From positions 1-29,738 of the IMG/VR virus record IMGVR_UViG_3300023245_000074: a DNA stretch of 29,738 bases. One strand, given 5' to 3'. Made by a program: the position numbers and the translations under genes. Below are positions 14,657 through 29,738 of the stretch, piece after piece. Source of the DNA: a virus. Within the stretch, counting starts at the first letter, position 1. Each line of letters starts with the position of its first letter. The notes under the pieces are model-generated. The model made no database searches. It was not told where the DNA came from and saw only the letters and a list, made by a program, of their open reading frames with translations.

Positions 14657-16163
14657 AACCATTATTCCTGGACCTCCTGGAACGGGTAAGACCTACCGGT
14701 TAATCAATCATCACTTGGCCCGTGAACTAGAACACACCAGTCCTGATAAAGTTTTATATGTATCGTTTAGTAATGCAGCTTCCAATGAAGCAAGGAATAG
14801 AATTAGTATGTTGTATCCGAATAAAGAAGTATTGGTTAGTACCTTACATGCTTTAGGGACGAGAGAATTAGGCATCAATACCAATACACAATTACTTCAA
14901 GGGACCAACTGGAAAGGATTTAAAAACTATTCAGGCATTTGTCAGGACCTAGAGTTTGAAACCATTACCAATGAAAGTGGAATTCCAGAGTACCGAAACA
15001 ATTATATGAAAGTAATTGACTATGCGAGATCTAAAAAGATCCCTGAACTAGATGATGCCGCACTAGAATTAGATGTTATTGATTCTATTGACATGGGTTT
15101 ATGTCAACAAATTAAACAAGACCTAGAAGATTTTAAAAGAGATTTTACCATGTTTGAATTTTCAGACATGATATCCCAGTTTGTTAAGAAAGATAAATGT
15201 CCACCCCTCGACGTTGTCTTTCTTGATGAAGCACAAGATCTAAGTCCCTTGCAATGGGATATGTTCTTTTACATTGAATCCCGATGTAAACGTTCCTACA
15301 TTGCGGGGGATGACGATCAGACAATCTATTCTTTCCAAGGTGCAGACCCTACTATTTTTATTAACCTAGAAGGAACTTTAGATCCACAAACAGAATCGAG
15401 ACGAGTCCCTAGAAGCGTGCATCGAGTAGCTATGTCTATCTTAGAGAACGTAGAGCAACGAAGAGAGAAGGTTTGGATCCCTAGAGATGCAACCGGGATG
15501 GTAGTGGAAGATGCCAGTTTAGAGCAATTAGATTTTAGTACAGGTAACTGGATGATTTTAACTAGGACCAACAATCAAATGAAACCCATTGTAGAGTATA
15601 TGATGTCTCTGGGACATAGGTTTGAATGTAAATATAATCCTTTACTTCCTAATGACTTAGTACAAGCAATTAGTATCTGGAATCGTTTAAACAAAGGTGC
15701 CAGTGTTTCAGGTGCAGAAGCACAACAGGTCTATGAATACTTAACCGTTAAAGATGAGCAAGTGAAATATAAATTCTCTGGAGGCAAGTCTCTGGACGGA
15801 GTGGATACCGTAGACATCGATGAGTTGATGCTGAACCACGGGCTTCTAGTAACGGGCAGCTGGGAACTATTGAATGTAACCGAAGAACAAAAATTACATA
15901 TCCAGGAACTAGTGGCGAGCAGCGAGGATCTAAGTAAAAAAGCTAGAATTAAAATTGCAACCATTCATAGTGTAAAGGGAGAAGAGTGTGACAATGTTAT
16001 TTTATTTACAGATTTAGAAAAAATTATCTACGACTCGGCTTTGCGAGATAAAGACACAGAACACCGATTGTTTTTTGTGGGAGTAACTAGAGCCAAAGAA
16101 CGATTGTACATCATGAGTCATGATTACGATTACCAATACAACATAGGAGAAGAAATCATATGA
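14640..16163 (+). CDS. UvrD/PcrA-like superfamily 1 helicase
   Basis: The 507-residue protein has Walker A GPPGTGKT at residues 11-18, motif II LDEAQD (Asp196, Glu197), motif III GDDDQTIYSFQGAD, motif V-like TIHSVKGEECDNVI and motif VI FVGVTRAKERLYIM. This is the full set of an SF1A UvrD-type DNA helicase, though the protein is shorter than cellular UvrD because the 1B and 2B domains are reduced. It probably unwinds the fork or acts in recombination. It overlaps the primase by 17 bases and the next gene by ATGA. A seven-base repeat run at 15902-15936 encodes the linker VASSEDLSK just before motif V. Confidence 0.92.
   Translation: MLHSNRTIIPGPPGTGKTYRLINHHLARELEHTSPDKVLYVSFSNAASNEARNRISMLYPNKEVLVSTLHALGTRELGINTNTQLLQGTNWKGFKNYSGICQDLEFETITNESGIPEYRNNYMKVIDYARSKKIPELDDAALELDVIDSIDMGLCQQIKQDLEDFKRDFTMFEFSDMISQFVKKDKCPPLDVVFLDEAQDLSPLQWDMFFYIESRCKRSYIAGDDDQTIYSFQGADPTIFINLEGTLDPQTESRRVPRSVHRVAMSILENVEQRREKVWIPRDATGMVVEDASLEQLDFSTGNWMILTRTNNQMKPIVEYMMSLGHRFECKYNPLLPNDLVQAISIWNRLNKGASVSGAEAQQVYEYLTVKDEQVKYKFSGGKSLDGVDTVDIDELMLNHGLLVTGSWELLNVTEEQKLHIQELVASSEDLSKKARIKIATIHSVKGEECDNVILFTDLEKIIYDSALRDKDTEHRLFFVGVTRAKERLYIMSHDYDYQYNIGEEII
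15902..15936 (+). repeat. Heptad repeat run in the helicase gene
   Basis: Units CCAGGAA, CTAGTGG, CGAGCAG, CGAGGAT and CTAAGTA start at 15902, 15909, 15916, 15923 and 15930. A partial run upstream (CTAGTAA at 15846, CGGGCAG at 15853, CTGGGAA at 15860) lies on the same seven-base phase. The run falls in an inter-motif linker of the protein. Confidence 0.5.
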
Positions 16164-16443: not shown

Positions 16444-18292
16444 AGCAGCGACCGAATGGAATTGTCCGGAAACGTTTCCTGATCTAAGTAAAGCAAAGTA
16501 TATTGCGATTGACTTAGAGACTAGGGATCCTGATTTAAAAACTAGAGGATCCGGTGCTGTCATTGGTAACGGAGAAGTAATTGGTATTGCCGTAGCCATT
16601 GAAGGCTGGTCTGGATACTATCCTATTGCACATAGAGAAGGTAACTTAGATAAACGAATTGTATTAGATTGGTTCAAAGAAGTATGTGCAACCGATGGAG
16701 TAAAAATATTTCACAATGCTATGTACGATGTTTGTTGGATTCGTGCCCTAGGTATTCCTATTAATGGTCACCTAGTAGATACGATGGTGATGGCTTCTTT
16801 GATTGATGAAAATAGATTTTCTTATACCTTAAATAGTATTGGTTATGATTATTTAAGAGAAGTCAAAGATGAAAAAGGTTTAAAACTAGCGGCCGAACAA
16901 GCAGGCGTGGATGCTAAATCAGAAATGTACAAACTTCCGGCAATGTATGTGGGAGCCTATGCAGAAAAAGATGCTGAACTAACTTTACAATTATTTAAAA
17001 CATTATCCGTAGAAATTAATAAACAAAACTTAACCGAAGTATTTGATTTAGAAACTAGATTGTTTCCTTGTTTGATTGATATGAAATTTAAAGGCGTTCG
17101 TGTGGACAATGAAAAAGCGCATGTACTGAAAAAAACATTAGTTTCAAAAGAACAAACCTTATTGTTAGATATAAAAAGAGAAACCGGAATAGAACCACAA
17201 ATATGGGCAGCAAGAAGTATTGCAACCGTGTTTGATAAACTTGGTTTAACTTATGAACGAACGGCAAAATCAAATGCTCCTTCTTTTACTAAGAATTATT
17301 TGTCTACCCATCAACATCCTTTAGTACAGAAGATAGCAAAAGCCAGAGAAATCAACAAAGCTCACACTACGTTTATTGATACGATTTTAAAACATTCTCA
17401 TAAAGGAAGAATTCATGCGGATATTAATCCTATTCGTTCTGATCAAGGAGGAACCGTTACCGGTAGATTTAGTTATTCTAATCCTAACCTACAACAAATT
17501 CCTGCTAGAAATAAAGATTTAGGTCCTATGATTCGTGGATTATTTATTCCAGAAGAAAATCATTTGTGGGGTTGTTTTGATTACTCTCAACAAGAACCAA
17601 GATTAGTGGTACACTATGCAGCTTCCACTGAACCGATTTGTTTTGATGAATCGGTTACTAAAATTGTGGCTCAGTTTAAAGATAACTCCGTAGACTTTCA
17701 CCAAACCGTGGCAGACATGGCAGGCATTTCTAGATCTCAAGCTAAGACTATTAACTTAGGATTGTTTTATGGAATGGGTAAAGCAAAATTACAAGCAGAA
17801 CTAGGATTAAGTACCAAACAAGAAGCAGAACAATTATTTAATCAATATCACCAGAACGTTCCGTTTGTAAAAGATTTAATGAATCGAACTTCTTCTCATG
17901 CGCAAGGATCCGGATCTATTGGAACCTTACTAGGACGACGATGTCGTTTTAATAAATGGGAACCGGATACTTTTGGTATGCACACTCCTATGACTTATGA
18001 AGAAGCAGAACTAACGTATGGACGTAGACGAATTAAAAGAGCCATGACTTACAAAGCGTTAAACAAATTGATACAAGGAAGTGCAGCCGACATGACTAAA
18101 AAAGCTATGTTAGATCTTTATGAAGAAGGTATTATACCACATATTCAAATACATGATGAATTAGATATCTCGGTAGAGTCTCCAGAACATGCTAAAAAGA
18201 TAGTTGAGATTATGGAAAATGCTGTTACACTCAAGGTTCCTAACAAAGTAGATTATGAATCCGGCAAAAGCTGGGGAGACATTTATGGCTAA
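16433..18292 (+). CDS. polA: Family A DNA polymerase with 3'-5' exonuclease domain
   Basis: The 619-residue replicative polymerase has an N-terminal exonuclease domain (DLET with Asp27 and Glu29; HNAMYDVCW; YAEKDAEL) and a polymerase domain with motif A FDYSQQEPRL (Asp383), motif B RSQAKTINLGLFYGMG and motif C IHDELD (His574-Asp575-Glu576). No 5'-3' exonuclease domain is present, as in other phage enzymes. In motif B, Arg434, Lys438 and Tyr446 match Arg754, Lys758 and Tyr766 of E. coli Pol I, and the Phe762 position is Leu442. Leu at this site is the variant reported as common in marine viral PolA. It sits at the core of the replication block. Confidence 0.95.
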   Translation: MLFEAATEWNCPETFPDLSKAKYIAIDLETRDPDLKTRGSGAVIGNGEVIGIAVAIEGWSGYYPIAHREGNLDKRIVLDWFKEVCATDGVKIFHNAMYDVCWIRALGIPINGHLVDTMVMASLIDENRFSYTLNSIGYDYLREVKDEKGLKLAAEQAGVDAKSEMYKLPAMYVGAYAEKDAELTLQLFKTLSVEINKQNLTEVFDLETRLFPCLIDMKFKGVRVDNEKAHVLKKTLVSKEQTLLLDIKRETGIEPQIWAARSIATVFDKLGLTYERTAKSNAPSFTKNYLSTHQHPLVQKIAKAREINKAHTTFIDTILKHSHKGRIHADINPIRSDQGGTVTGRFSYSNPNLQQIPARNKDLGPMIRGLFIPEENHLWGCFDYSQQEPRLVVHYAASTEPICFDESVTKIVAQFKDNSVDFHQTVADMAGISRSQAKTINLGLFYGMGKAKLQAELGLSTKQEAEQLFNQYHQNVPFVKDLMNRTSSHAQGSGSIGTLLGRRCRFNKWEPDTFGMHTPMTYEEAELTYGRRRIKRAMTYKALNKLIQGSAADMTKKAMLDLYEEGIIPHIQIHDELDISVESPEHAKKIVEIMENAVTLKVPNKVDYESGKSWGDIYG

Positions 18293-26559: not shown

Positions 26560-26928
26560 TTGAAACCTGAACGTAAATTCTGGAATGAACTTAAAAAAGT
26601 TACACCTGAAATATCTTGGACAAGAGTAGAAAACATGGCGGCTTTAGGTACACCAGACCTGTTGGGATACAACAAAAATAATACTTTTTTCACTGTTGAA
26701 CTGAAAGTCACAACTACCAACAAAGTGCGTCTCTCTCCGCATCAAATTGCCTTCCATGTGAGGCACCCTCACAATTCATTTATCATAGTAAAGTCTCTCG
26801 CCTCTAGCTACGTGAAACTTTACCAAGGACACAAGGTCTTGGAGCTTGCCGCTTGCGGCTTGAAGCTTGAGGCTTGCAGCTTGGGGCTTGAGGCTTGTTG
26901 CTTGCGGCTTCATGAGCTTGGCGCTTGA
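26560..26928 (+). CDS. VRR-NUC-type nuclease with repeat-encoded tail
   Basis: The frame probably starts at TTG 26560; no ATG fits upstream of FWNELKK. The nuclease core has GTPDLL (Asp33), FFTVELKV (Glu47 and Lys49) and SPHQIAFH (Gln62), the VRR-NUC form of the PD-(D/E)xK fold found in phage resolvase-like or repair nucleases. From about residue 95 onward the frame runs into the heptad array and encodes AACGLKLEACSLGLEACC and similar sequence, so the natural C-terminus seems to be lost or replaced. It may cut branched DNA in replication. No ribosome-binding sequence is clear, so the start is uncertain. Confidence 0.7.
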   Translation: MKPERKFWNELKKVTPEISWTRVENMAALGTPDLLGYNKNNTFFTVELKVTTTNKVRLSPHQIAFHVRHPHNSFIIVKSLASSYVKLYQGHKVLELAACGLKLEACSLGLEACCLRLHELGA

Positions 26929-27114
26929 GGCTTGCTGCTTGCAGCTTGTCGCTTGAGGCTTGCCGCTTGAAGCTTGAGGGTTTAGGAGCTTGACGCTTGT
27001 GGCTTGTGGCTTGTGGCTTGTGGCTTCATGAGCTTGTCGCTTGTGGCTTGAGGCTTGCGGCTTGAAAAGGTTGGTTCGAAAGCTTGCGGCTTGTGGCTTG
27101 CGGCTTGTGGCTTG
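26844..27114 (-). repeat. Main heptad array: 35 units of CAAGC plus two variable bases
   Basis: On the plus strand GCTTG recurs with exact seven-base spacing in five in-phase blocks: 10 units from 26844, 9 from 26916, 6 from 26988, 5 from 27032 and 5 from 27082. Two units read GCTTC, each followed by ATGA, so the next unit is nine bases on. The five constant bases are separated by two variable bases, mostly cg, ag, tg, aa, ca or cc. The orientation given is that of the minus strand (CAAGC). It fills the space between the convergent VRR-NUC and GP88 genes and supplies the tail of VRR-NUC. There is no other gene in this stretch. Confidence 0.9.
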
Positions 27115-27116
27115 GA

Positions 27117-27173
27117 GCCCGGCACCAGGTTTCCCTGGTGGTAGAACTGCTACGGAGTGAAGGTAGCCCGGGC
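27117..27173 (-). ncRNA. Three-way-junction RNA candidate 1
   Basis: On the minus strand GCCCGG (27173-27168) pairs with CCGGGC (27122-27117) and encloses two hairpins: GCTAC/GTAGC (27167-27163 with 27153-27149, nine-base loop) and CACCAGG/CCTGGTG (27140-27134 with 27129-27123) capped by GAAA, a GNRA loop. The stems abut the closing stem with no unpaired bases on either side, and an eight-base linker joins them. It lies just upstream, on the minus strand, of the main heptad array and downstream of the GP88 stop. Confidence 0.6.
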
Positions 27174-27188
27174 AAATTTGTGCGGCTC

Positions 27189-27208
27189 ACGGGGCTAATG
27201 AACCCCGT
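27189..27208 (-). terminator. Hairpin overlapping the GP88 stop codon
   Basis: ACGGGG (27208-27203 on the minus strand) and CCCCGT (27194-27189) pair around an eight-base loop that contains the stop codon TAG (27197-27195). No T-run follows. It may slow ribosomes at the stop or stabilise the mRNA end; intrinsic termination is uncertain. Confidence 0.4.
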
Positions 27209-27794
27209 AAGCAACATTTTTAACAGAAGGATCCCAGCACATCCGACAGTCTAAACACTTGCCGCCCTGCTTAGGAGCGGGACAAGTGGCCCCGGAGGTA
27301 ACGACCGTTGACGTGTTTTTCCAATTGCCAGAAGCTTTCTGGTCAATCATGGGAATGGAAAATCGTATTGTTAAATTATCTGGTTTTCTGTCCTGGTACT
27401 TTTGAGTCCAGGCCTCGCGCGTTGGTAACCAGTGTTTCATATCAGGTGTTAATCTGGCTACTTTAAAAATTTTAGCTAGATGCTTCAGGTCCTGAACGTC
27501 GCCAGAATCGTGCCATCTAAAGACATTTGCCTTCTGGTGTAATAAATGAAAAGTCATAGCTTGAACCCATAGCGGGTGGCGTATGGCGTCTAGTCTCGTA
27601 TACTGAGCTGATTGTACAACGGGAAAGACATAACAGCCTTTGAGAGCGTAACAGCTCGAGCAGGTGCTGCCTGGAATTTTTGCCAGCTTCGATCCTGTTT
27701 TACATTCCTTAGCCGGTAGGCCGTAGGCTTTACCTGGCATCTTAGACGGTTTACTAAGTGAACCCGTAATATTAAGCGCTTCTATTTTATTCAT
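27195..27794 (-). CDS. GP88-family phage protein
   Basis: The 199-residue protein matches the phage gene-product-88 family: CSSCYALKGCYVF (Cys45, Cys48, Cys54), then RWHDSGDVQ (His95, Asp96, Asp99), LPTREAWTQKY, and a second Cys group near the end (CPAPKQGGKCLDCRMCW). The conserved Cys sets could hold a metal cluster, but the family's activity is unknown. It begins with an AGAAAGA ribosome-binding sequence and has its own TTGACA promoter. It is the largest gene of the right-end minus-strand cluster. Confidence 0.8.
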   Translation of the reverse strand: MNKIEALNITGSLSKPSKMPGKAYGLPAKECKTGSKLAKIPGSTCSSCYALKGCYVFPVVQSAQYTRLDAIRHPLWVQAMTFHLLHQKANVFRWHDSGDVQDLKHLAKIFKVARLTPDMKHWLPTREAWTQKYQDRKPDNLTIRFSIPMIDQKASGNWKNTSTVVTSGATCPAPKQGGKCLDCRMCWDPSVKNVAYGVH

Positions 27795-27821
27795 ATTATT
27801 TCTTTCTGTTATTATATATCC

Positions 27822-27849
27822 TATATAATCATTTATTCTTTATTGTCAA
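27822..27849 (-). promoter_or_regulatory. GP88 promoter abutting a heptad array
   Basis: On the minus strand, TTGACA (27849-27844), a 16-base spacer and TATATA (27827-27822) make a strong promoter. The -35 box directly follows the last repeat base (CAAGC then TTGACA), so the array sits exactly upstream of the promoter. Confidence 0.7.
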
Positions 27850-27993
27850 GCTTGCGGCTTGTAGCTTGCGGCTTGTAGCTCTGGTATCTAGCTCCCGGAA
27901 AAATTTCTCGCAGCTCTTCACATAGCTGGCCGGAAGATCCGCGCGATTCCAGGTGAACCACGGGATCAAATCATTGTGTTTGATTCTCTTCAT
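27829..27993 (-). CDS. Small MKRI-type protein, copy A, with repeat-derived tail
   Basis: I placed the start at 27993, four bases after the upstream gene. The 54-residue product begins MKRIKHNDLIPWFTWNR, contains LPASYVKSCEKFFREL, and ends in the repeat-derived TRATSRKLQAASLTIKNK. Copy B at 29108-29311 is clearly related, so this is a duplicated gene. No function is known. The conserved part ends just before the repeat, which shows that the array has entered or replaced the 3' end. Confidence 0.6.
   Translation of the reverse strand: MKRIKHNDLIPWFTWNRADLPASYVKSCEKFFRELDTRATSRKLQAASLTIKNK
27850..27882 (-). repeat. Heptad array 2 (4 units plus a GCTCT end unit)
   Basis: GCTTG starts at 27850, 27857, 27864 and 27871, with GCTCT at 27878, all seven bases apart. 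It codes for the end of the MKRI-type gene at 27829-27993 (RATSRKLQAAS) and borders the GP88 promoter. Confidence 0.8.
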
Positions 27994-27997
27994 AGGT

Positions 27998-28288
27998 CTA
28001 ATAATTCTGTATAACAAAACCACCATCAAAAGAAATGACCTTTGTTTCTCGTTCAAGGTCTTTCATGCTTTTTATGTCGGGATAGTTTTCTTGTACTTCT
28101 TTTAAGTTTTTATATTCGGAATAATTACAACAGATATCAATAGGATCGAATTCCAGTACTTCACCAGTGTTTTCTTCGTATTCTTCGAAGCCCTGCCAAA
28201 GAGCTTGGAGAGCGTTATATGAGAATTGATTAGGTCTTATTCTCATGAAGTCGTCTGTAAAATCACACTCATTCATTATATTAATCAT
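27998..28288 (-). CDS. Conserved acidic protein of unknown function
   Basis: This 96-residue protein has RPNQFSYNALQALWQGFEEY, EVLEFDPIDICCNYSEYKN and KVISFDGGFVIQNY. This F-S-Y/L-A-L plus I-C-C-x-Y-S-E-Y pattern occurs in many phage and bacterial proteins of unknown function. It has an AGAAAGA ribosome-binding sequence, shared in form by the whole cluster. An alternative start is the Met at residue 5. Confidence 0.65.
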   Translation of the reverse strand: MINIMNECDFTDDFMRIRPNQFSYNALQALWQGFEEYEENTGEVLEFDPIDICCNYSEYKNLKEVQENYPDIKSMKDLERETKVISFDGGFVIQNY

Positions 28289-28300
28289 TGTTATATCTTT

Positions 28301-28358
28301 CTGTTTATTAATTTACCTTAAACTATTTATACTAATTTTATATTACCAAAGTGTCGCA
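28301..28358 (-). promoter_or_regulatory. Duplicated promoter-like block, copy A
   Basis: This block upstream of the gene at 28288 is nearly identical to 29095-29153: both have TTAATTTACCTTAAAC, CTATTTATA and, after a diverged stretch, CAAAGTGTCGCAG joined to a heptad array. Minus-strand TATAAA is the best -10 candidate, but no standard -35 lies 16-18 bases from it, so a non-sigma70 or activated promoter is possible. Confidence 0.5.
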
Positions 28359-28553
28359 GCTTGCGGCTTGTTGCTTGCGGCTTGCTGCTCTGTCCCAGAT
28401 TTCTATAAATCTCTTCAACCAATTAGATTGAGCTATAGTTAGGCCAGGCGTTCCTAGTAATACCTCATCCGCGCTCATTTTTTCTAGATTATTTTTATCC
28501 ATCCATTTAACATAAATTTCTGATAATCTATTCAAGGGTGTCATTGTTTTCAT
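28338..28553 (-). CDS. Small hypothetical protein with repeat-derived tail
   Basis: The 71-residue frame starts at 28553, where stop and start form TGATG with the upstream gene; an in-frame ATG at 28559 is an alternative. The conserved-looking part is helical (LNRLSEIYVKWMDKNNLEKM, TIAQSNWLKRFIEIWD); the end RAASRKQQAASCDTLVI comes from the heptad array and the promoter block. No function is known. Confidence 0.5.
   Translation of the reverse strand: MKTMTPLNRLSEIYVKWMDKNNLEKMSADEVLLGTPGLTIAQSNWLKRFIEIWDRAASRKQQAASCDTLVI
28359..28391 (-). repeat. Heptad array 3 (4 units plus a GCTCT end unit)
   Basis: GCTTG starts at 28359, 28366, 28373 and 28380, then GCTCT at 28387, as in array 2. It encodes the RAASRKQQAAS tail of the gene at 28338-28553. 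Confidence 0.8.
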
Positions 28554-28726
28554 CAGCATAAATTCTCGTTTGCATAATCAGCTAACAATTCGCTAGCCAT
28601 TTCTGTATCTTTAGTTTTTAAATATTTATAGAATAACTTTTTAAAAGTTTTATCTTCTAATAAGTCTTCAAATAAACAAGATGTCTCACTCTCTACTAAT
28701 GACGCTATGATATTTCTTTTGTCCAT
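28553..28726 (-). CDS. Small hypothetical acidic protein
   Basis: The 57-residue frame reads MDKRNIIASLVESETSCL and continues with FEDLLEDKTFKKLFYKYL and EMASELLADYANENLC. It is preceded by the cluster's common AACAGAAAGATATAACA leader, which supports translation. It is predicted helical. No family is recognised. Confidence 0.55.
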   Translation of the reverse strand: MDKRNIIASLVESETSCLFEDLLEDKTFKKLFYKYLKTKDTEMASELLADYANENLC

Positions 28727-28741
28727 TGTTATATCTTTCTG

Positions 28742-28906
28742 TTATTTAGCTATTTTAACATACTTATATGTTAAATAGTGCTGCCAAATTGTCGCAGGTG
28801 CTTGCAGCTTGCAACTCGGATCCTCTTCTTCCTCTAGTATATAGTCAATTTCTTCTAAAGATAAATTAGATTCCAGCAATTCATTTAAAGTCATTTTTTT
28901 AGTCAT
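28742..28906 (-). CDS. Small acidic protein with repeat-derived segment
   Basis: The 54-residue frame starts MTKKMTLNELLESNLSLEEI, then YILEEEEDPSCKLQAPAT, where CKLQAPAT is encoded by heptad units, and ends by reading through the palindromic operator (TIWQHYLTYKYVKIAK). Its ATG overlaps the upstream stop (TAATG). The part after the acidic stretch is probably not ancestral. Confidence 0.5.
   Translation of the reverse strand: MTKKMTLNELLESNLSLEEIDYILEEEEDPSCKLQAPATIWQHYLTYKYVKIAK
28754..28775. promoter_or_regulatory. Perfect palindrome, probable operator
   Basis: TTTAACATA (28754-28762) and TATGTTAAA (28767-28775) are perfect nine-base arms around CTTA; with a one-base bulge the match continues outward to CTAT and ATAG. 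It lies just upstream of the gene at 28726. The half site TATGTTAAA recurs in the RHH promoter at about 19954. Confidence 0.55.
28800..28818 (-). repeat. Heptad array 4 (2-3 units)
   Basis: GCTTG at 28800 and 28807, and ACTCG at 28814, on one seven-base phase. It is preceded by CCAAATTGTCGCAG, related to the CAAAGTGTCGCAG block beside arrays 3 and 5. Confidence 0.6.
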
Positions 28907-29085
28907 TAATTTAAACTTTCGTTTTTAAATCCAGCGTTTACTATTCTTTCTGAATAGGCTCTGAATACAGTTTCATTCCAGCCTTTAATTCCTGGAATTT
29001 TTTCCTCCATACGCTCTCTAATTATTTTCCAATCTTCATCTTTCATAGTAGATAGTAGACTAATGTATTGTTCTTTTGTAAGCAT
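28906..29085 (-). CDS. Small hypothetical helical protein
   Basis: I chose the ATG at 29085, six bases after AGAAAGG; a GTG at 29091 is less likely. The 59-residue product MLTKEQYISLLSTMKDEDWK with IRERMEEKIPGIKGWNETVF is charged and helical. The stop overlaps the next ATG. No family is recognised. Confidence 0.5.
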   Translation of the reverse strand: MLTKEQYISLLSTMKDEDWKIIRERMEEKIPGIKGWNETVFRAYSERIVNAGFKNESLN

Positions 29086-29094
29086 ATTCACCTT

Positions 29095-29153
29095 TCTGTT
29101 ATTTAATTTACCTTAAACTATTTATATTAAAATCATATTGCCAAAGTGTCGCA
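29095..29153 (-). promoter_or_regulatory. Duplicated promoter-like block, copy B
   Basis: It is the second copy of the block at 28301-28358, again placed between a small minus-strand gene start and a heptad array. The conserved bases cover AT-rich promoter DNA and the CAAAGTGTCGCAG junction. Confidence 0.5.
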
Positions 29154-29311
29154 GCTTGACGCTCGAATCTCTCTGCTTGTAGCTCGTTGCTTGCGGCTTT
29201 GATACCCAGCTCACGGAAAAATTTCTCGCAGCTTTTTAAGTATGCAGCAGGCAGCTGGCCATGGTCCTCCCGGAACCATGGCAACAGATCGTTGTGATTA
29301 ATTCTCTTCAT
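29108..29311 (-). CDS. Small MKRI-type protein, copy B, with repeat-derived tail
   Basis: This 67-residue relative of the gene at 27829 starts MKRINHNDLLPWFREDHGQL and shares AAYLKSCEKFFREL. After this core it reads through heptad units (IKAASNELQAERFERQAAT) and the promoter block. Its ATG lies inside the 3' end of the upstream gene. A perfect inverted repeat, GCCATGGT and ACCATGGC (29258-29265, 29275-29282), lies in the 5' part. Confidence 0.6.
   Translation of the reverse strand: MKRINHNDLLPWFREDHGQLPAAYLKSCEKFFRELGIKAASNELQAERFERQAATLWQYDFNINSLR
29154..29200 (-). repeat. Heptad array 5 (7 phases, degenerate)
   Basis: Units on a seven-base phase: GCTTG 29154, GCTCG 29161, a degenerate unit at 29168, GCTTG 29175, GCTCG 29182, GCTTG 29189 and GCTTT 29196. 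The mix of GCTTG and GCTCG links the right-end CAAGC type with the CGAGC type found inside plus-strand genes. Confidence 0.75.
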
Positions 29312-29471
29312 TGTCCTCTTCTATTTTTTTAGATACATGTGCCATATCTTTTTTCACCAGGAACAAGATCTCGTCCATTGCATCGGCTATTCTACGTAGT
29401 TGTGTAACTTCACCGGTTCTATAAGTTCTTTTGTGAACCAACTCTTCTAACTCTTCTATTTCTTTTGCCAT
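29298..29471 (-). CDS. Small charged coiled-coil-like protein
   Basis: The 57-residue frame MAKEIEELEELVHKRTYRTG with EVTQLRRIADAMDEILFLV and KKDMAHVSKKIEEDNEEN is amphipathic and helical. It is preceded by AGAAAGGAAA and by the promoter at 29501-29530, and overlaps copy B by 14 bases. No family is recognised. Confidence 0.55.
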   Translation of the reverse strand: MAKEIEELEELVHKRTYRTGEVTQLRRIADAMDEILFLVKKDMAHVSKKIEEDNEEN

Positions 29472-29497
29472 TGTTTATTTTCCTTTCTGTTGTTTAA

Positions 29498-29530
29498 AGT
29501 ATCCTACAACATATAGGATACTATTGTCAA
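29498..29530 (-). promoter_or_regulatory. Promoter containing a perfect inverted repeat
   Basis: AGTATCCTA (29498-29506) and TAGGATACT (29514-29522) are perfect nine-base arms around seven bases. On the minus strand TTGACA (29530-29525) lies beside them, and TAGGAT at 29506-29501 (18-base spacer) is a possible -10. A protein bound to the repeat would cover the spacer and -10, so this is a likely repressor-controlled promoter. Confidence 0.6.
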
Positions 29531-29546
29531 CTAACTTTATACGTGT

Positions 29547-29572
29547 GCTTGAAGCTTGGAGCTTGCTGCTTG
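29547..29572 (-). repeat. Heptad array 6 (4 units)
   Basis: GCTTG at 29547, 29554, 29561 and 29568. It joins directly to the first base of the three-way-junction RNA candidate 2 and lies upstream of the promoter at 29530. Confidence 0.75.
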
Positions 29573-29655
29573 AGTCTAGCGGCCCGGCGGGCTATGTCTC
29601 CATAACCTAGATAAAACTATGGATAGTTTAAAGATAACACCGGGCCACTAGATTC
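29572..29655 (-). ncRNA. Three-way-junction RNA candidate 2
   Basis: On the minus strand the 16-base arms GAATCTAGTGGCCCGG (29655-29640) and CCGGGCCGCTAGACTC (29587-29572) pair with one mismatch and one wobble. They enclose AAACTA/TAGTTT (loop TCCA) and the seven-base-pair stem GGTTATG/CATAGCC capped by GAGA, a GNRA loop. The order of parts is the same as in candidate 1, including the GCCCGG/CCGGGC core and the adjacent heptad array. It is strongly GC-rich in its outer stem against an AT-rich background. Confidence 0.6.
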
Positions 29656-29657
29656 AA

Positions 29658-29711
29658 TTACTTATTTTTTTGTTGTAGCTTATACAACTTACGGTCGTAA
29701 TATCTTTCCAT
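29658..29711 (-). CDS. Candidate 17-residue peptide
   Basis: A short frame MERYYDRKLYKLQQKNK begins at the ATG at 29711. It has no clear ribosome-binding sequence. It lies just upstream of the RNA candidate on the minus strand. Evidence is weak; the rest of 29656-29738 shows nothing else I can support. Confidence 0.2.
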   Translation of the reverse strand: MERYYDRKLYKLQQKNK

Positions 29712-29738
29712 GCATACACACAGCACGAAAGATAGGAA

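Follow-up and report, generated by a model that had tools for sequence, protein, structure and literature searches.

Do two structured stretches that lie directly beside heptad repeats in a marine phage belong to one RNA family, and what might they do there? The question was raised by a leftward gene block in a 29,738-base IMG/VR fragment (35% G+C), the whole of which is called the window below. It stems from a phage related to the marine, SAR11-type Pelagibacter phage HTVC027P; few viruses on Earth are as abundant as the phages of SAR11. The block lies between a convergent gene and the right end of the window. Besides a GP88 gene it contains small genes on the minus strand, and its four CAAGCNN arrays are all on that strand too. 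A sequence-only reading had described two structures in it, here named elements 1 and 2, as three-way junctions, possibly of a new RNA family linked to the repeats. The features of the block are:

26560-26928, plus strand: convergent gene, its end overlapped by the long CAAGCNN array
26838-27114, minus strand: long CAAGCNN array with 33 CAAGC at 26844-27114, 3' of element 1 and extending over the end of the convergent gene
27117-27173, minus strand: element 1 (S1), a closing stem and two hairpins, the second capped by GAAA; known from its fold and an identical copy in L002/L215
27195-27794, minus strand: GP88 family gene of 199 aa (Pfam PF17338, E 2.7e-25), orthologue of HTVC027P gp33, with 80 relatives
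27850-27875, minus strand: short CAAGCNN array, upstream of the promoter region of GP88; its 5' side showed no notable structure
28359-28384, minus strand: short CAAGCNN array separating two small genes of the minus strand
29298-29471, minus strand: gene of 57 aa with homology to HTVC027P gp34, lying beyond element 2 and its array on the 3' side
29501-29530, minus strand: sigma-70-like promoter TTGACA-18-TAGGAT (consensus match only), between the array of element 2 and the next gene
29547-29572, minus strand: short CAAGCNN array with 4 CAAGC, directly 3' of element 2
29572-29655, minus strand: element 2 (S2), a long closing stem GAATCTAGTGGCCCGG/CCGGGCCGCTAGACTC and two inner hairpins, the second capped by GAGA
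29658-29738, minus strand: last part of a small ORF truncated at the right edge of the window, its stop codon immediately preceding element 2

Both structures were found to fold on the minus strand, each directly 5' of CAAGCNN repeats, as had been proposed. Element 1 (minus strand, 27173-27117) consists of GCCCGG, a 5-bp hairpin with a 9-nt loop, an 8-nt linker, a 7-bp hairpin capped by GAAA, and CCGGGC. Its MFE was -29.5 kcal/mol, with a dinucleotide-controlled z of -3.95, and an equally good fold was obtained in 0 of 200 shuffles. Element 1 falls within the 3' end region of the GP88 gene; it starts 22-23 nt past the stop codon of GP88 and stops 2 nt short of the first CAAGC. Element 2 (minus strand, 29655-29572) has a closing stem of about 15 bp, including GGCCCGG/CCGGGCC, followed by a 6-bp hairpin and a 7-bp hairpin capped by GAGA. 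For the stretch 29567-29660 the MFE was -43.6 and the dinucleotide-controlled z -7.25. Element 2 follows immediately on the TAA stop (complement of 29658-29660) of the small ORF, the full length of which is 41 aa in the relative L223 and 42 aa in L003, and it ends at the next array. The plus strands of both elements fold too, less well. Across the whole window, z was below -4 in 9 of 1483 sliding minus-strand windows, and since other stretches are equally stable, stability alone does not single out elements 1 and 2.

The proposal of one shared layout stood in outline: the closing GCCCGG/CCGGGC pairs, the two hairpins and the GNRA caps are common to both elements. In detail the layouts differ, the closing stem of element 2 being more than twice as long as that of element 1 and followed by 8-10 unpaired nucleotides before the first hairpin. 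Outside the closing stem the two elements could not be aligned and are not homologous. The differences between two non-homologous look-alikes cannot show covariation, and the proposal that covariation had kept a shared structure is not supported. A descriptor for the layout, a closing stem around a hairpin and a GNRA hairpin, was composed after elements 1 and 2 had been seen; it matched only these two within the window and gave about one match per 48 kb of strand in other loci. Next to arrays elsewhere, it found only copies from the same virus group and two dissimilar sites. Three sequence patterns, run against 2.9 million viral contigs, returned no independent further copy of either element. 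The patterns for element 1 matched only L002/L215 and chance coding sequences, among them L216, L221 and L222 from unrelated phages, and a database BLAST for copies elsewhere returned nothing. L002/L215 represents a near-identical virus (99.9% over 2,992 bases), in which element 1 is identical. The pattern for element 2 matched only L223, which is 98% identical around the element; a single linker substitution is seen in L223 and L002. The further copies of the junction thus came down to the same virus group and chance matches.

No known riboswitch or ribozyme core had been recognised; the window had no Rfam match at the gathering threshold, and a relaxed threshold gave only matches at chance level. 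An integron attC site, a CRISPR repeat, a known ribozyme and a known riboswitch were rejected as identities, there being no Rfam match. CCGGGC as a common motif at array boundaries was likewise rejected, as it was not enriched outside the group of elements described below as family A (10 occurrences compared to 10 and 13 in control stretches). Transcription of the minus strand fits the orientation of GP88 and the expression of gp33 (PMC12753301); the GNRA loops that had been used to fix the strand are the poorer evidence. Elements 1 and 2 are best read as functional counterparts in equivalent positions; neither by sequence nor by structure do they make up one family.

A diverged homologue of the closing stem of element 2 was found in L003 (2657-2725) after the orthologous ORF. 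In this relative GP88 is 89% identical and the flanks about 88%. The two stems differ by 11 substitutions in 32 arm positions, and in 4 of the 16 pairs both partners have been replaced and still pair; each sequence forms 15 of the 16. Random substitution at the same rate gave P 0.0013 for at least 4 double changes and P 0.00014 for at least 15 pairs, and slid registers gave 0 double changes; a separate shuffle control is weak because the comparison has two sequences only. Pairing in the closing-stem family of element 2 has accordingly been kept through substitutions, in a homologue at an orthologous place. The interior of the L003 element holds a different hairpin, CTGGAGGTAAAC, unrelated to the junction and GNRA hairpin of element 2. 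Since the stem covaries and the interior is unrelated, the alignment with L003 indicates that the closing stem of element 2 is kept and its junction is not; the compensatory changes foreseen for the junction are confined to that stem. L074 and L165 carry the hairpin CTGGAGGTAAAC as well, within other stems, and an interior module, CTGGAGGTAAACnCGnGCAG, is common to three different closing stems (L003 2680, L074 5398 and L165 3038).

Element 1 has no diverged homologue and hence no covariation evidence of its own; taken alone, it could be a product of chance. At its place, L003 carries an unrelated 19-bp stem (z -7.1), which is common to L088 with a different loop. The order of stop codon, stem and array is thus retained in L003 at both places, with both interiors unrelated to those of the window. 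Among the 80 relatives of GP88, the sequence 3' of the gene usually leads into CAAGC arrays, often via a stem-closed element, and these elements differ between relatives at the one locus. The arrays lie on the GP88 strand in a ratio of 163:3 (first 95 loci). Excluding family A, the mean z of the 75 nt preceding arrays on the 5' side was -1.21, compared to -0.50 in upstream controls (p 2e-6) and -0.17 on the 3' side (p 3e-14), p values that are too small because the sequences are related. The association of structured elements with arrays is real, and the relatives show that structures in this position recur and are under selection. The proposal of a new RNA family linked to the repeats therefore holds as a rule linking structure to array, and for family A, and does not hold as one family that includes both elements. 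The proposed family was absent, yet structured RNA and arrays do belong together, and the trail led to an element that Rfam does not contain. All 16 dinucleotides were observed at the NN positions of the arrays (window 26838-27114 and relatives). In HTVC027P the arrays are restricted to the leftward block (first 50 kb), and phage 023Pt_psg01 has no array by the array criterion and a coding stretch rich in CAAGC/CGAGC after GP88.

Family A occupies the locus of element 1 in relatives, close behind GP88 and with a CAAGC array following directly:

HTVC027P (MN698241) 16634-16695, minus strand: family A element, inside gp32

It is stem-closed like element 1, but differs from it in sequence and architecture. 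The layout is GGATCAGG-N-NATTAG-(variable hairpin, loop mostly C-GACG-G)-CGT-N'-C-CCTGGTCC-GGGCC, then the array, with a P1 of about 12 bp containing a bulge and a hypervariable P3 usually capped by C-GACG-G. In an alignment of 82 copies from separate loci (A1), 97.3% of cells were paired and 99.9% in P1, where conservation is partly imposed, the collecting pattern having fixed most of the P1 arms and the ATTAG. The covarying positions free of the pattern are the column pairs 2/67, 10/58, 11/56 and 17/52, and P3. Cells with double changes numbered 138 over the whole structure compared to 42.7 in shuffled alignments, and slid registers paired at most 38%. In one pair, U-G is the commonest combination. 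No record, not even a genome of 56-58 kb, had more than one copy of family A. Its covariance model (R1) gave no match in the window up to E = 10 with filters off, and the family had no match in Rfam. Judged from this alignment, family A is a robust, strongly supported covarying structured element, absent from Rfam. It forms an in-frame part of a small ORF (HPKYYKEL... or FPRGI...); 71 of 71 distinct interiors are open compared to 51.5 expected, and the CGACGG loop occurs in two codon phases about equally. The open interiors and the loop in two phases together imply that nucleic acid and frame are both constrained. Of 72 loose matches in cellular genomes, only the small MAG contigs L330 and L374 fitted a stricter pattern, and these are probably viral pieces.

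The reading preferred here, at a probability of roughly 0.45, is that elements 1 and 2 may be gene-end RNA stems punctuating single-gene transcripts. In this block of an HTVC027P-related pelagiphage, with its small genes under separate promoters, the recurring order is stop codon, stem-closed RNA, CAAGCNN array, promoter and next gene; at element 1 the long array closes the block in place of a promoter and a next gene. The closing stem would be the working part, leaving the interiors of elements 1 and 2 free to change. Such a stem may set or protect transcript ends by blocking 3'-to-5' decay; alternatively, it may serve for processing of the RNase III type or for attenuation, with a stable 3' end as the outcome. 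The reading draws on the folds, their place and strand, the excess of structure 5' of arrays, and the pair-preserving changes in element 2 and family A. In HTVC027P, gp33 (GP88) and gp34 make up a separate temporal cluster of expression with a peak at 6-9 h (PMC12753301), as expected of separately expressed units. No U-tract or terminator call was obtained at element 1 or element 2, and because they have no U-run, the elements are not intrinsic terminators in the usual sense. They share with Rho-independent terminators a GC-rich hairpin after the stop codon and differ from them in having no U-tract. Family A lies in an ORF and not strictly after a stop codon, so a single role for all the elements is not assured.

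The main rival to gene-end stems holds that the stems act as DNA hairpins or cruciforms marking points of module exchange (recombination, nicking or replication start), with the arrays as homology tracts and RNA folding as a by-product. Constant stems with swapped interiors would be expected of it, as would the presence of CTGGAGGTAAAC in three different stems, the different gene content beside the arrays in L003, L223 and L002, and the near-perfect palindromic arms, read on both strands, of some members of a further group, family C. However, the strict bias of strand and order relative to genes and arrays speaks against a DNA site, the stems keep G-U pairs, which pair in RNA and less well in DNA, and the gene swap of L223/L002 by element 2 starts at the Shine-Dalgarno region and not at a stem. 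A DNA role is thus considered unlikely. Mobile or decaying palindromic elements, tolerated at gene ends or in frame and without function for the phage, could account for the in-frame family A with its open interiors and for different elements at one locus in different phages. A dispersed element would not, however, be limited to one family A copy per record, and the family A pairs are kept by double changes over a wide divergence, which makes this explanation quite improbable.

Chance would require that GC-rich arrays and gene ends commonly hold stable hairpins, two of which were picked for their likeness. The nine minus-strand stretches with z below -4 and the frequency of descriptor matches agree with it; the dinucleotide-controlled z values of about -4 and -7, the place kept in L003 with compensatory changes and the excess of structure over controls do not. 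Already disfavoured for element 2, chance is given little weight. Least credible of all is a new trans-acting or ligand-binding three-way-junction RNA family of which elements 1 and 2 are diverged members. It would explain the common pairs, hairpins and caps and the position of both beside arrays, but was already weakened by the lack of alignable sequence and by the loss of the junction in the homologue of element 2 itself. Neither the viral contigs nor the descriptor at other arrays offered a further copy, and CCGGGC was not enriched 5' of arrays outside family A.

A broader extension of the gene-end stems is possible, but doubtful: a class of pelagiphage devices in which a closing stem, conserved and covarying, is combined with an interior open to exchange and with CAAGCNN repeats on one strand. 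Together these parts would control the ends and fate of single-gene early transcripts. Elements 1 and 2 would then be two devices with new interiors and family A the most widespread fixed form, placed in a coding frame. T7-type RNase III processing stems and 3'-protective hairpins are intergenic and lie between phage genes. The elements described here are of comparable length and stand between small, separately expressed genes; processing is only putative here. Rickettsia palindromic elements form RNA structures in frame in ORFs and are dispersed in many copies in cells. Family A is likewise in frame, but limited to one copy at most per phage record. A literature search gave nothing on heptad arrays or structured RNAs of pelagiphages, and two pelagiphage full texts mention neither. 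As family A is present in the cultured HTVC027P, for which an infection transcriptome has been sequenced, the role of gene-end structures is directly testable.

Two further structured elements were observed. Family C comprises 69 distinct cores (for example L104 9209-9263 and L229 1407-1455), with constant arms (C)TGATCCCTGATCCATTG / CAATGGATCTGGGATCA(G) that were fixed by the search pattern, and an interior that varies in both length and sequence and does not align over its whole extent. At least 3 CAAGC were found within 300 nt 3' in 38 of the 69 and 5' in none; family C usually stands before such arrays and sometimes occurs without them. An antisense or guide role of the variable interiors of families A and C was rejected, as their longest matches to the own contig, antisense or sense, equalled those of shuffles, on contigs most of which are fragments. 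The second is the Flavobacterium-1 RNA (RF02976), found in HTVC027P at 17753-17873, minus strand (L082 5529-5649), with 90.2 bits. Its place is in the leftward block too, where a CAAGC array and a promoter-like sequence follow it closely on the 3' side. Six other records tested also contained it, and the score was above the family cut-off in 6 of the 7 in all. Flavobacterium-1 RNA spans 121 positions with a sequence and structure of its own, unlike elements 1 and 2, which did not match it, and it was not found in the window.

In E. coli, arfA is controlled by a hairpin inside its own ORF. HTVC027P gp30 (15768-15944, minus strand) is annotated as the ribosome rescue factor ArfA (PMC12753301), and the in-frame family A hairpin near it forms a loose parallel. 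In L223/L002 the promoter is followed by an extra small gene (MYQRDHKIAFENAISKG...) that is missing from the window (29480-29540); this gene swap begins near the CAGAAAGGA ribosome-binding region.
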